Assembly: GCA_021784785.1 (NCBI GenBank)
Contig: JAJYHJ010000173.1
Coordinates: 1 to 35,090, forward strand
Direction: 5' to 3'
Length of the DNA stretch: 35,090 nucleotides
Source of the DNA: Actinomycetes bacterium
GTDB lineage: Bacteria > Actinomycetota > Acidimicrobiia > Acidimicrobiales > Acidimicrobiaceae
Position numbers and translations under genes: made by a program. Below are positions 17,783 through 24,515 of this stretch, one piece after another. Position 1 is the first letter of the stretch. Each line of letters opens with the position of its first letter. The notes under the pieces were generated by a model. That model was not told where the DNA came from. It made no database searches and saw only the letters and a list, made by a program, of their open reading frames with translations.

Positions 17783-18866
17783 TTTCGCCGTGACAAAAGT
17801 ATACGACTCTGCGAGGACCGGTACGTTTTGTGGTTCCCGGCATACCTTTGAGACTCCAGTATTTATGCCCGTAGGCACGAGAGGTGCAGTACGTCTTTTC
17901 CCCTATGATCTGGTGGCAGAGATAGGTTTTGAGATCGTCCTCGCTAACACATATCATATGATGCTTCGACCGGGCGCAGCTACGGTTGAAGCTCTCGGTG
18001 GCTTGCACCGCTTCACGGGGTGGGACGGTGCAATCTTGACAGATTCTGGTGGCTTTCAAGTGATGTCTCTAGGAGCTACCTTTGACGAAGATGGTGTGTC
18101 CTTTCGGTCTGTCTATGATGGTGCGAAGTTACGTCTAACTCCAGAAGATGCGATTGAAGTGCAAGAACTACTTGGTTCGGACATAGCTATGGTACTTGAC
18201 GTATGTACTATGTTGCCCGCCGATCGGTATGAACTCAAAAGGAATCTTGACCTAACTTTAGCGTGGGCAAAGAGGTCTAAGGCGAGAAAGACGCGGTCTG
18301 ATCAAGCATTATTTGGAATCGTGCAAGGCGGTACAGACGTCGAACTTAGAAAAAGATCCTTGGAAGAGACTTGCGAGCTTTCATTCGATGGATACGCAAT
18401 CGGAGGTCTAGCCGTCGGGGAAGAGAGGTCATTGACTCTGGACACAGTTGCAAGTTGCACGGAGGTGCTTCCTAAAGAAGCTCCAAGATACCTGATGGGT
18501 GTGGGCGATCCATACTCTGTCGTACACGCTATAGCGCTTGGGGTGGATATGTTTGACTGTGTGGCTCCGTCACGCATAGCGCGTCACGGAGTTGCTTGGA
18601 CATCAACTGGGAAAGTGACAGTTAAGCAGGCACGATACATTCAATCTATGGATCCACTAGATCCGAACTGCGCATGTGAAACCTGTAAACGCTATCCGTT
18701 AGCGCTCTTGAACCACCTCTATAAGGTAGACGTTGAAACCTTGGGCGTCTTGCTTACTAGGCACAATCTTTCTTTTATGCAGACGCTCATATCATGGAGC
18801 CGCTCGTCGATAAGAGTCGGTAGCTGGTCTGAAGTGAAGAGGTTCGTGGAAACTTACTATAGCTAG
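17754..18866 (+). CDS. tgt: tRNA-guanine transglycosylase
   Basis: ETPVFMPVGTRGAVR, LTDSGGFQVMSLG, CACETC zinc motif with downstream H; start uncertain (TTG 17754/17772 or GTG 17790). Confidence 0.95.
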   Translation: MREITPLSGSFAVTKVYDSARTGTFCGSRHTFETPVFMPVGTRGAVRLFPYDLVAEIGFEIVLANTYHMMLRPGAATVEALGGLHRFTGWDGAILTDSGGFQVMSLGATFDEDGVSFRSVYDGAKLRLTPEDAIEVQELLGSDIAMVLDVCTMLPADRYELKRNLDLTLAWAKRSKARKTRSDQALFGIVQGGTDVELRKRSLEETCELSFDGYAIGGLAVGEERSLTLDTVASCTEVLPKEAPRYLMGVGDPYSVVHAIALGVDMFDCVAPSRIARHGVAWTSTGKVTVKQARYIQSMDPLDPNCACETCKRYPLALLNHLYKVDVETLGVLLTRHNLSFMQTLISWSRSSIRVGSWSEVKRFVETYYS

Positions 18867-18881
18867 GAGCTAAGTGATATG

Positions 18882-18900
18882 AGTTTCAACTCTTGAAACT
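18882..18900 (+). terminator. Hairpin between tgt and yajC
   Basis: agtttcaa-ctc-ttgaaact, 8-bp perfect stem; no U-tract, so role uncertain. Confidence 0.3.
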
Positions 18901-18928
18901 ACAATAAGCTAGTCGCATTGGAAGGACT

Positions 18929-19351
18929 TTGATGAGTCAACTAATTTTTGTAATAATTGTTTTAGTAATCCTTTACATGTTGTTTTTGCGCCCCCGTATG
19001 AAAGGCGCGAAGACGAACCGAAAGCTCGGTCTACAACCAGGAGATGATGTTGTGTCAAATGGTGGGATCTTCGGTGTCGTTACCAAAACCTACGACCAGA
19101 GGATCTATGTCGAGATAGCTCCAGAGGTAGAGGTGATCTTCGATAGGAGATCGTTAACTCATCTTGACAGTGTCATTGTGGACGCTATGGAGGAGGCCGA
19201 GGCTAAATTTGATGAGATTGAAGCTAGAAAAGCGCAAACTGAGTTGAAAGAGGGAGATGCGGTCGATGAAGAACCTCAACCCCTATCGAACTTATCCGAT
19301 GCAAAAGAAGTAGAAGAAGTCAAAGGTGATGATGAAGGTGACGTTAAATAG
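18929..19351 (+). CDS. yajC: Preprotein translocase subunit YajC
   Basis: N-terminal TM then LFLRPRMKGAKTNRKLGLQPGDDVVSNGGIFGVV; acidic C-terminal tail; between tgt and secD. Confidence 0.92.
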   Translation: MMSQLIFVIIVLVILYMLFLRPRMKGAKTNRKLGLQPGDDVVSNGGIFGVVTKTYDQRIYVEIAPEVEVIFDRRSLTHLDSVIVDAMEEAEAKFDEIEARKAQTELKEGDAVDEEPQPLSNLSDAKEVEEVKGDDEGDVK

Positions 19352-19403
19352 TGACGAGGTAGCAGGTGATCACTAGGTGAAAGACTTGGTGTAGGGTGAC
19401 TCT

Positions 19404-19436
19404 ATGATTAAGATCGGTGTTTTAGAGAGAGTATGA
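19404..19436 (+). CDS. Candidate micro-ORF MIKIGVLERV overlapping the secD start
   Basis: atgattaagatcggtgttttagagagagtatga; AGGG SD about 7 nt upstream; stop TGA overlaps secD ATG as ATGA. Confidence 0.3.
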   Translation: MIKIGVLERV

Positions 19437-20905
19437 GAAAAGGTCCACACGTATTATCAGTCGTTTTATCGATAGTGGTTTCTTTAGGTGCCTTTATCGC
19501 TGTGCTAGCGCTCAACTATAAGCCAATACTTGGACTTGATCTGCAAGGGGGAGCCTCGGTCGTCTATAAACCTACTAGAGCTGTTTCCCAGGCGACGTTA
19601 AATCAGACCATATCTATTATTCGGAACCGTGTAGATGGTCTAGGAGTGGCTCAACCGAACATCGCTCAACAGGGCAAAGACATAGTGGTGCAACTTCCTG
19701 GAATTAAACATCCAAATCAGGCACTTTCTCTTATCGGGCAGACTGCACAGCTTGAATTTCGACCTGTGTTGTGCTCGATCCCTACCTATAAAAAACCTAC
19801 TGGACAACTCGCTAAAGATATCAAGGCCCATCCTCTTTCTCCGTTTTGTCCAAGTTCAGCACAACAAGATGCACTTGCCCAGTATGAGCCGAATACGACG
19901 TTTTCGAAGCTGAACTCTTCAAAAGAAGCCGTATTGTCGCAAACCTCTGGCTCTCGGGTTACGCGTTACGTTCTTGGACCGACACTGGCTAACGGCACTG
20001 CACTTTCTAGTGCTTCGGCGGGACTTAATCAACAGCAACAATGGGTCGTGAACTTCTCCCTCACTGCTAAGGCGACGCCACTTTTTAATCAAATTGCGAC
20101 GACATACTTCGACAAACAGCTGGCGATCGTCTTGGATACGAACGTGATCTCTGCTCCGGTCATAACCACTAAGAGTTTCAATGGGCAAGGTGAAATTACT
20201 GGTTCAGGCGGTCAAGCTCAGGCAGAGAATTTGGCATTGGTGTTAAAGTATGGAGCATTACCAGTGCAACTTCAGCAACTTACGGTTCAGACTATCTCAC
20301 CGACGCTTGGTAAGGCATCGTTGAAGGCGGGAGTGTATGCAGGCTTAGGTGGACTTTTGTTGGTGCTTCTCTATACAGTCCTTTACTATAGAGCTTTAGG
20401 GGTGGTTGTACTTTTGGGGCTATCTACAACTGCAGCGATGCTGTGGGCGATTGTGTCTCTGCTTGGTCATACATCTCAGCTGACCTTGGATCTCTCTGGA
20501 GTTACTGGCTTGATAGTATCTATCGGCGTCACCGTGGACTCTTATGTAGTTTTTTTTGAACGCTTAAAGGATGAGCTGAGAGGTGGAAAGTCGCTTAGAT
20601 CTTCGGTGGACAGAAGTTTTGCAAAGGCTTTCCGCACTATAGTCGCGGCAGATCTTGTGTCGCTTATCGGAGCTACTCTGCTCTACCTGCTCAGTATTGG
20701 TCCAGTACGAGGATTTGCCTTCTTTCTAGGAATCTCAACGTTGTTAGATGTTGTTTCCGCTTGGTTTTTTACTAGACCCATAGTTATTTTGATGGGCCAG
20801 TCTAAGATCGCCCAAAACCCGAGGTTTTTTGGATTAAGTACCGGAGCTCTCAAGACGACAGCACCTGCACCTAGTAGTGGTGTCCTAAAACCAAGTGGGG
20901 TGTGA
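19433..20905 (+). CDS. secD: Protein translocase subunit SecD
   Basis: LGLDLQGGASVVYKP, IIRNRVDGLGVAQPNIAQQGKDIVVQLPG, GLIVSIGVTVDSYVVFFERLKDELR. Confidence 0.97.
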   Translation: MRKGPHVLSVVLSIVVSLGAFIAVLALNYKPILGLDLQGGASVVYKPTRAVSQATLNQTISIIRNRVDGLGVAQPNIAQQGKDIVVQLPGIKHPNQALSLIGQTAQLEFRPVLCSIPTYKKPTGQLAKDIKAHPLSPFCPSSAQQDALAQYEPNTTFSKLNSSKEAVLSQTSGSRVTRYVLGPTLANGTALSSASAGLNQQQQWVVNFSLTAKATPLFNQIATTYFDKQLAIVLDTNVISAPVITTKSFNGQGEITGSGGQAQAENLALVLKYGALPVQLQQLTVQTISPTLGKASLKAGVYAGLGGLLLVLLYTVLYYRALGVVVLLGLSTTAAMLWAIVSLLGHTSQLTLDLSGVTGLIVSIGVTVDSYVVFFERLKDELRGGKSLRSSVDRSFAKAFRTIVAADLVSLIGATLLYLLSIGPVRGFAFFLGISTLLDVVSAWFFTRPIVILMGQSKIAQNPRFFGLSTGALKTTAPAPSSGVLKPSGV

Positions 20906-20908
20906 TCT

Positions 20909-20992
20909 ATGAAACGTCTCTTAGGTGCCTTTAATGGTGCTAAACGCACCTGCGAGTGTACGGTTATAGCGAGTATTGAGGTGGCACTGTGA
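20909..20992 (+). CDS. Candidate 27-aa small ORF filling the secD-secF gap (MKRLLGAFNGAKRTCECTVIASIEVAL)
   Basis: ATG 4 nt after the secD stop; GGGG SD-like within the secD end; TGA stop overlaps the secF GTG (GTGA). Confidence 0.4.
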   Translation: MKRLLGAFNGAKRTCECTVIASIEVAL

Positions 20993-22179
20993 CAACCATT
21001 GGCGAAGGTGAAAGAGAGTCAACCCGATCGTCGGATGATGTCTTAATGGGAGCAACGAGAGTGGCTTCCAAAAAGCGATCTCGCTGGAGTGCTCTTTATG
21101 AAGGCGAGACGACCATTGGATTTTTGAAAAAGCGTAAGATTTTTTACGCTTTTTCGATAGCAATCATACTGCTAGGAGCTCTCTCTATGGGGGTGCGAGG
21201 TCTGAACTTTGGAATCGATTTCAAAGGTGGAACCTCCTGGCAGGTGCCTTCTAGTACTTTAAGTGTCACAAAAGCTCAATCTGTGCTCAGAGCAGATGGG
21301 GTCACCCAGGCTACAGTTTTCACATTGGGTACTGGCCATAATCGTACCTTAGAGGCCGAAGCTGACCTCTCAAATCTTTCTCCAGGAGCACAGGCTGCCA
21401 AAGACAAGCAGATCTCGGTGGATCTAGCGAAGGCTGGTGGCGTTAGCTACTCTTCGGTTAGCCTAACCAACGTCGGTCCAACGTGGGGTGGTGACGTTAC
21501 ATCGAAAGCGCTCGAGGCCCTGGGATTCTTCTTCCTTGGGATAGTGATATATATATCGATTCGTTTTGAATGGAAGATGGCCGCGGCGGCCTTAGTCGCA
21601 GTAATTCACGATCTTTTAGTCACAGTTGGCATCTACTCGATATCCAACTTTCAGATCACGCCTGCGACTGTGATTGCAGTGCTTACAATACTTGGATACT
21701 CTCTTTATGATACGATCGTTGTCTTTGACCGGATTCAAGAGAACGTGAAGGCTTTGGTCAATCCTGGTCGTCTTGCTTATGACGACTCTGTGGATCTGTC
21801 TTTAAACCAAGTGTTGATGCGATCTTTGAATACATCACTAGTGGCAATTATCCCTGTATTTTCAATCCTTGTCGTTGGTGCTTACATACTAGGTGCGACG
21901 ACGCTGCAAGACTTTGGTCTTGCATTGTTCGTAGGACTGACTACGGGAGCGTACTCGTCTATCGCCATAGCCTCTCCGGTCCTTGCTTTCTTGAAAGGCC
22001 GAGAACCTAGATACCAGAGCCTCAAGAAACGTCTAGGCGCAAGCCACCATCCTTACTCCCCTAAGGCAGTAGCCCAAGGGGTGCTGCTTACCACATCTAG
22101 CACCACGGGCGACCAGGGGACGAGGACTCCGCGTTCCAAGCCGAATGGCTCACGGAGAAAGAGTCGAGCAAAGCGTTAG
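20989..22179 (+). CDS. secF: Protein translocase subunit SecF
   Basis: GLNFGIDFKGGTSWQV, LTILGYSLYDTIVVFDRIQEN; SD GAGG before GTG 20989. Confidence 0.97.
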   Translation: MTTIGEGERESTRSSDDVLMGATRVASKKRSRWSALYEGETTIGFLKKRKIFYAFSIAIILLGALSMGVRGLNFGIDFKGGTSWQVPSSTLSVTKAQSVLRADGVTQATVFTLGTGHNRTLEAEADLSNLSPGAQAAKDKQISVDLAKAGGVSYSSVSLTNVGPTWGGDVTSKALEALGFFFLGIVIYISIRFEWKMAAAALVAVIHDLLVTVGIYSISNFQITPATVIAVLTILGYSLYDTIVVFDRIQENVKALVNPGRLAYDDSVDLSLNQVLMRSLNTSLVAIIPVFSILVVGAYILGATTLQDFGLALFVGLTTGAYSSIAIASPVLAFLKGREPRYQSLKKRLGASHHPYSPKAVAQGVLLTTSSTTGDQGTRTPRSKPNGSRRKSRAKR

Positions 22180-22259
22180 ACGTTTTGGTTAAAACTCTTT
22201 AGTAGATCTCTTAGAGTCGGCAGTGTCGTTCTGGATATGAGGTAACTTTATATACATAG

Positions 22260-24515
22260 ATGGCTGATGTTGTTGAGATAAAGTTAGAACTGTTTTCACC
22301 AGATAGGTTGGTGGAGATTTTCTTGCGCCGCCACGAGAACTATAGTGGAGATCCTCAAGTAATACTTGGTGCTTTCGATCTAGCAAAGTCGGCACATAAA
22401 GGTCAGTACCGAAAATCAGGAGAACCGTACTTCTACCATCCACTATCTGTAGCGGAGATTGTAGCGTCATTGGGTGCAGACGAGATTACTGTGTCCGCAG
22501 CACTTTTGCACGATGCCGTTGAAGACACTGATTTAGCACTAAAAGAGGTTGAGGATCGCTTCGGGATCTCAGTGGCACAGATAGTAGATGGAGTGACGAA
22601 ACTTGATCGTCTGAGCTTTGAATCCAAAGAAGCTCAACAAGCTGCTACTATGCGAAAGATGCTCTTGGCAATGGCAAGAGATCCGAGGGTTCTGGTGATT
22701 AAGCTAGCCGATCGGCTTCATAACATGAGAACCATTGGCGCACTACCGGATTGGAAACAGCGGCGTACTGCTCAAGAGACGATGGACATCTATGCCCCGT
22801 TGGCACACAGACTTGGTATTGCAGAGATTAAGTGGCAGCTTGAGGACTTGGCTTTTGCAACGTTGCACCCCCGACGCTACGCAGAGATTGAACACCTGGT
22901 AACGACACGGTCTCCAGAGCGCGAAGAGTATCTGCACTCAGTCCAAGAGATGGTGAAAGTGAAGCTGAGTGAGGTGGGAATCGATGCAGAGGTGACTGGC
23001 CGCCCTAAGCATCTCTGGAGCATCTACGAGAAGATGGTGATCAAGGCTAAGGACTTTGACTCAATCTATGACATTGTAGGTATGCGGATCATTACTGAGA
23101 CTGAAAAAGACTGTTGGGCTGCTCTTGGTGTAGTACATTCCATCTGGTCCCCGGTGCCGGGAAGATTTAAAGACTACGTAAACGCTCCGAAATTTAACCT
23201 GTATCAGTCCCTACATACCACTGTCGTACTGCCTAGCGGCAACCCACTTGAGGTTCAACTGCGTACGGCGGACATGCATAGACGCGCTGAGTATGGGGTT
23301 GCAGCTCACTGGGGGTACAAGGAGGGTTCGACCAAAGAGGAGCTTGTCTGGTTGCAGCGTATAGTTGACTGGCAAAAAGACACCACAGATCCTCACGAGT
23401 TCTTGGAGAATCTCAAGCTTGATCTTGAGGTTGATGAGGTCTATGTATTTACTCCTAAGGGTCGGGTGATAACTCTCCCAAACAACGCTACTCCAATCGA
23501 CTTTGCCTACGCAGTACACACCGAGGTAGGGCATAGATGTATTGGTGCGAAGGTGAATCAGCGACTTGTACCCTTGGACTCTAAGTTAAACTCAGGTGAC
23601 ACCGTTGAGATCTTTACCTCGAAGGTCCAAAGTGCCGGCCCTTCGCGAGACTGGCTGAAAGTTGTGGTGACTCCACGTGCTCGTAATAAGATTAGACAAT
23701 GGTTTTCGAAAGAGCGACGAGACGAATCAGTCGAAGTAGGCAGGGAAGAGCTAGTTAAGGCTCTACGGAAAGAGGGCCTAGCTGTTCAAAAACACACGTC
23801 ACAGACGGGATTAGGACAGATTAGCCAACTGATGGGATTTGACTCCGTTGAAACCCTACTTGCGGCGATCGGAGAGAATCACGTAAGTGCTAGAAGTGTT
23901 GTTACAAAACTCCTTCGAGACGTCTACCAAGTGGAAGATGAGACCTCTATACCTATAGTGACTCCGGGACGCGGACGTCGGAAAAGAGGTGGTCCAGGTA
24001 TATACGTGGAGGGTCTCGACGATGTTATGGTTAAGTTATCCAAGTGTTGTTCGCCTATGCCAGGAGATCCGATTATTGGTTTCGTAACCCGCGGTAAAGG
24101 GGTATCGATCCATAGGTCAGACTGCTCTAACGCGATGGCACTATTTAGCTCAGAGGCTGAACGCATGATTGAGGTTGAGTGGGACCTCGAATCTCACGGC
24201 ATCTTTTCGACTACGATCGAGGTGCGCTCATTGGATCGATCTCGATTACTTGCTGACGTAGCTAGGGTACTTTCCGAACACCATATCAATATCTTAAACT
24301 CGTCCTCGCAAGCGGGACACGATAGGGTATCCACTATGCGATTTGAGTTTGAACTGGCAGATCCGGCCCATCTCGAGTCGATCTTGGCTTCTTTACGGCA
24401 GCTGGACGGCGTCTATAACGCATATCGGGTATTGCCGAACGGTGGCTCTCCTGCTCCTGCTATTCCAACTTTTGGTGACGATGACCCTAAGGCGACTAAA
24501 GTCGAATCTAGGTAA
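22260..24515 (+). CDS. RelA/SpoT bifunctional (p)ppGpp synthetase/hydrolase
   Basis: LLHDAVEDT and KLADRLHNMRT (HD), RFKDYVNAPKFNLYQSLHTTV (synthetase), TGS and ACT domains. Confidence 0.97.
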   Translation: MADVVEIKLELFSPDRLVEIFLRRHENYSGDPQVILGAFDLAKSAHKGQYRKSGEPYFYHPLSVAEIVASLGADEITVSAALLHDAVEDTDLALKEVEDRFGISVAQIVDGVTKLDRLSFESKEAQQAATMRKMLLAMARDPRVLVIKLADRLHNMRTIGALPDWKQRRTAQETMDIYAPLAHRLGIAEIKWQLEDLAFATLHPRRYAEIEHLVTTRSPEREEYLHSVQEMVKVKLSEVGIDAEVTGRPKHLWSIYEKMVIKAKDFDSIYDIVGMRIITETEKDCWAALGVVHSIWSPVPGRFKDYVNAPKFNLYQSLHTTVVLPSGNPLEVQLRTADMHRRAEYGVAAHWGYKEGSTKEELVWLQRIVDWQKDTTDPHEFLENLKLDLEVDEVYVFTPKGRVITLPNNATPIDFAYAVHTEVGHRCIGAKVNQRLVPLDSKLNSGDTVEIFTSKVQSAGPSRDWLKVVVTPRARNKIRQWFSKERRDESVEVGREELVKALRKEGLAVQKHTSQTGLGQISQLMGFDSVETLLAAIGENHVSARSVVTKLLRDVYQVEDETSIPIVTPGRGRRKRGGPGIYVEGLDDVMVKLSKCCSPMPGDPIIGFVTRGKGVSIHRSDCSNAMALFSSEAERMIEVEWDLESHGIFSTTIEVRSLDRSRLLADVARVLSEHHINILNSSSQAGHDRVSTMRFEFELADPAHLESILASLRQLDGVYNAYRVLPNGGSPAPAIPTFGDDDPKATKVESR

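Follow-up and report, generated by a model that had tools for sequence, protein, structure and literature searches.

The window, a stretch of 35,090 nucleotides, comes from an actinobacterium of the genus of Ferrithrix thermotolerans. It carries the genes secD and secF, separated by a spacer of 83 nt. A small open reading frame (ORF) fills this spacer, and a second small ORF stands directly upstream of secD. The features of the locus are as follows.

19388 to 19403, plus strand: conserved -10-like block, TAGGGT followed by 6 nt, 5' of the secD-proximal small ORF; 75-88% identity in three genomes.
19404 to 19436, plus strand: secD-proximal small ORF of 10 codons, MIKIGVLERV, whose TGA overlaps the secD ATG (ATGA); three genus members share its position, length and overlap.
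19433 to 20905, plus strand: secD, an ORF of 490 aa ending in ...SGVLKPSGV*, with its stop TGA at 20903-20905; Pfam SecD_1st, SecDF_P1_head and SecD_SecF_C.
20897 to 20902, plus strand: Shine-Dalgarno (SD)-like GGGGTG for the 27-codon ORF, also the last codons of secD; duplex -10.4 kcal/mol.
20909 to 20992, plus strand: small ORF of 27 codons filling the secD-secF gap, from the ORF call; peptide unconserved.
20978 to 20983, plus strand: SD sequence GAGGTG of secF, within the 27-codon ORF; duplex -10.6 kcal/mol; TTTGAGGTGG also in F. thermotolerans.
20989 to 20992, plus strand: GTGA, start of secF and stop of the 27-codon ORF (-4 overlap); kept in three genus members.
20989 to 22179, plus strand: secF, an ORF of 396 aa; Pfam SecD_SecF_C and Sec_GG.

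The 27-codon ORF starts with an ATG three bases 3' of the secD TGA, lies in the same frame as secD, and translates as MKRLLGAFNGAKRTCECTVIASIEVAL. Its TGA (20990-20992) falls on the secF GTG (20989-20991), giving GTGA. This is an overlap of the RTGA type, in which a TGA stop lies on a downstream RTG start. The original prediction had described an ORF bridging the two genes in this manner, preceded by a GGGG SD-like sequence, and the coordinates bear out both points. The GGGGTG is spaced 6 nt from the ATG, and the strength of its duplex with the anti-SD of the 16S tail is equalled by only 1.9% of the 971 ATGs in the window.

Two genus relatives keep the secD-secF junction. One is F. thermotolerans DSM 19514 (G003, NZ_FQUL01000002.1), and the other is a metagenome-assembled genome (G001, identical to L054; JAJYGA010000065.1); a further genus genome, G002, is without the junction. 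Aligned junctions make GTG 20989 the likely start of secF. The first codons of the gene agree between the window (GTG ACA ACC ATT GGC GAA GGT) and G001 (GTG ACG ACC GTT GGT GAA GGG), with differences mostly in the third position. A start at the internal ATG 21046, which the original prediction had named as evidence that would refute it, finds no counterpart, that ATG being absent from the relatives.

The two relatives differ in what they have kept between the genes. G001 (SecD 91% and SecF 80% identical to the window) has an ATG ORF that is also 27 codons long, MSIEFNKRSVMSYIYGGTAPLDARVIS, with an identical GTGA end. Its peptide is unrelated to that of the window, it stands in a different frame relative to secD, and the two spacers do not align above the level of shuffled sequences. 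F. thermotolerans (SecD 88% identical) has a spacer of 75 nt that does align to the window (score 3.0; shuffles -10.0, sd 3.9). However, length changes with a frameshift, together with stops, leave only 5 codons open before its GTGA, and no bridging ORF is found at its junction. The longest candidate there opens with TTG, spans 19 codons and closes before reaching the secF SD. The coupled linkage is thus retained, with a diverged peptide, in one of two relatives and lost in the other, and stops and frameshifts, which the original prediction had named as evidence against a functional ORF, do occur in F. thermotolerans. On these alignments, conservation of the peptide does not extend even to close relatives.

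Searches beyond the genus agree with this. A search of 41 other genomes of the family turned up no homologue of the 27-aa peptide, which also has no Pfam match, and a genus search with the spacer as a possible repeat found only its own locus and weak short matches. The codon composition of the ORF also looks non-coding: it resembles stop-free off-frame sequence, unlike the genes of the window, and 58% of such pieces score above it.

How often such an ORF would arise by chance can be estimated from dinucleotide-shuffled versions of the 83-nt spacer in which the GTGA is held. In 10% of these the frame is open; 3.7% have a start codon of some kind within the first 10 nt, and 0.8% have an ATG there, all figures to be read in the knowledge that the ORF was picked post hoc. 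The corresponding values for the G001 spacer are 33%, 10.8% and 4.7%. Elsewhere in the window, no same-strand gap in front of a called gene start is spanned completely by such an ORF; the one full match depends on an alternative internal start. The geometry of the ORF in the window is mildly unusual.

In most of the Actinomycetota junctions that were read, the secF start is at -4 or -1 with respect to secD or lies only a few bases away. Within the window's family, four genera (g1, g3, g4 and g7) include members with gaps longer than 25 nt, though not all members have one, and a single further case (L052) comes from a different family. In two of three Ferrithrix-genus members, two g4 genomes and g7, the reading frame stays open all the way from the secD stop to a stop codon that overlaps the start of secF. 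No bridging ORF is present, despite the gaps, in g3, in the other g4 members, or in L052. The two open frames of g4 (L014 and L020) run from the secD stop to a secF GTGA over 11 and 10 codons, with unrelated sequences.

The genus g7 provides the largest set, with nine genomes and gaps of 49-54 nt. Its frames end at -4 or -1 on secF and are fully open in eight of the nine; that of L025 is open for 14 codons. Permutation of alignment columns leaves all nine open in 3.5% of cases and at least eight open in about 10%. Substitutions are spread about equally over the three codon positions (170/155/145). Because of this even spread and these permutation values, there is no protein-level selection in g7, and the evidence for an open frame is only marginal. 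In L022, L023, L025, L026, L028, L029, L030, L033 and L035, the frame ends on the secF start after a spacer of about 50 nt. The endings are TAATG or ATGA in the same frame, and the two genomes without TGA carry TAA.

The small ORF upstream of secD is better kept. Its ATG lies at -29 in all three genus members, and a member of a neighbouring genus has a version of 9 codons with its ATG at -26. In F. thermotolerans the body of the ORF has diverged to chance level (24-31%), with frame and length kept. Among three genomes, identity is 75-88% within the block at -45 to -30, compared with 22-33% in the stretch before it; a sigma-70 scan did not call this -10-like block. Shuffling gives a 3-13% chance for this ORF, each case taken alone. 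These patterns fit a candidate leaderless coupled small ORF, and it is a better candidate, and a better kept one, than the ORF between secD and secF.

The best explanation for the ORF between secD and secF, held with confidence just short of even, is that it is a lineage-specific relay that hands ribosomes from secD to secF and whose peptide is irrelevant. A ribosome finishing secD would restart at the ATG 6 nt past the GGGGTG, translate all 27 codons as far as the GTGA, and there initiate once more, this time on secF. The relay would link translation of secF to that of secD over an 83-nt gap that otherwise breaks the usual direct overlap. A reason for having one can be seen in E. coli, where reinitiation drops by 80-100% at a gap of 38 nt (PMC10666635). 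Since secF has its own SD, normal initiation would continue alongside the relay, which would only supplement it. The observations beneath this model are the ORF, both SD-like sites, the GTGA, one sister with matching geometry but unrelated sequence, and another without the ORF; translation of the ORF, and thereby a raised output of secF, is what we infer from them.

Several results count in favour of a relay, namely the geometry in G001, direct secD-secF spacing as the rule, the open frames of g7, and the strong SD of the small ORF. Counted against it are the non-coding-like codons, the marginal result in g7, the unbridged gaps of g3 and part of g4, and F. thermotolerans, which has no bridging ORF but does have the secF SD. 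This last case, together with secF having an SD of its own, suggests that the relay is dispensable. Translational coupling, which the original prediction had taken as its conservative reading, is plausible and the best functional reading, whereas the stronger readings it had raised fail.

The alternative that survives best is a chance ORF. On this view the 83-nt spacer is simply neutral sequence. Initiation of secF then depends on its own SD, GAGGTG, and if the small ORF is translated at all, that is a by-product. A precedent is M. tuberculosis, in which small ORFs are translated pervasively without being under selection (PMC9094748). The unconserved peptide, the disrupted frame in F. thermotolerans and the non-coding codon use are all expected under it; an open frame arises by chance in 10% of shuffles for the window and 33% for G001, and any secF that begins with GTG-A supplies the GTGA end for free. 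It accounts less well for the combination of a start near secD with a fully open frame, which has a chance of 0.8-4% in the window and 5-11% in G001, yet is present in both. The explanation falls a little short of an even chance, and it and the relay are rated nearly even.

Three further explanations fare much worse. The GGTGC/GCACC pairings proposed to expose or hide the secF start do exist as sequence, and one hairpin appears in the minimum free energy fold. Yet folding of the spacer in three species gave no signal against shuffles (z-scores of 0.38 and -0.38 in the window, 2.02 and 0.33 in the relatives), the arms have no counterpart in the aligned relatives, and an Rfam scan of 18800-22400 returned nothing at E<=1, which makes an RNA switch very improbable.

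A Sec-monitoring arrest or leader peptide controlling secF, which the original prediction had mentioned while noting that no arrest motif or signal sequence is present, is more improbable still. The ORF shares its position directly 5' of a sec gene with the Sec/YidC arrest peptides SecM, VemP, ApdA/ApdP and ApcA (PMC10987492). Such peptides depend on a signal and a conserved C-terminus, and their arrest site has to lie more than 30 aa beyond the signal (PMC10987492). By inspection, the secD-secF peptide has no signal or transmembrane segment; no conserved C-terminus or arrest motif is found, the G001 peptide being unrelated and family homologues being absent, and at 27 aa the whole ORF is shorter than the published spacer alone.

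A C-terminal extension of SecD by UGA readthrough, prompted by the shared frame in the window genome, is just as improbable, as that frame closes 4 codons past the stop in both genus relatives (FYVD* and FEGS*) and several genera of the family have the SecD C-terminus (K/R)PS(G/R)V at the end of the protein or close to it.

The relay can be compared with known systems. By analogy, small coupled frames of this type are already known from mycobacteria, where RTGA-coupled small ORFs can hold the linkage while the peptide diverges (PMC4633059, Shell et al. 2015). As there, an unannotated ORF has its TGA on the RTG of the next gene, and one relative keeps the linkage with a diverged peptide. The mycobacterial ORFs, however, start leaderless transcripts, whereas the present one lies within an operon behind secD and has an SD; moreover, one close relative here is without the ORF. 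Another example is Salmonella mgtQ, an intergenic small ORF in the mgtC-mgtB gap that promotes translation of the downstream gene (PMC8092293). It too belongs to an operon, in which it sits in an unusually long gap. Unlike the ORF between secD and secF, which shows no structure signal or conserved residues, mgtQ has 8 codons, alternative stem-loops, and acidic residues that destabilise the ribosome. The MIRU elements of mycobacteria (PMC12548453) likewise place an ORF of an intergenic insert in -4 coupling with the next gene, but they are repeats, and the secD-secF spacer is not repeated in the genus search.

A wider proposal is that some lineages of the Acidimicrobiia have independently replaced a lost secD-secF overlap with unrelated relay ORFs, in which only the open frame to the secF start is selected, and that a second, leaderless relay drives secD in Ferrithrix. 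This proposal is tentative and, on present evidence, unlikely. Should the ORF be due to chance, it would serve as a caution that even an ORF that exactly fills a gap, with an SD and an RTGA overlap, can be unconserved. If the relay is real, selection in an operon gap would be keeping the translational linkage of two subunits and no peptide, which would help to account for many translated small ORFs of Actinomycetota without protein conservation.
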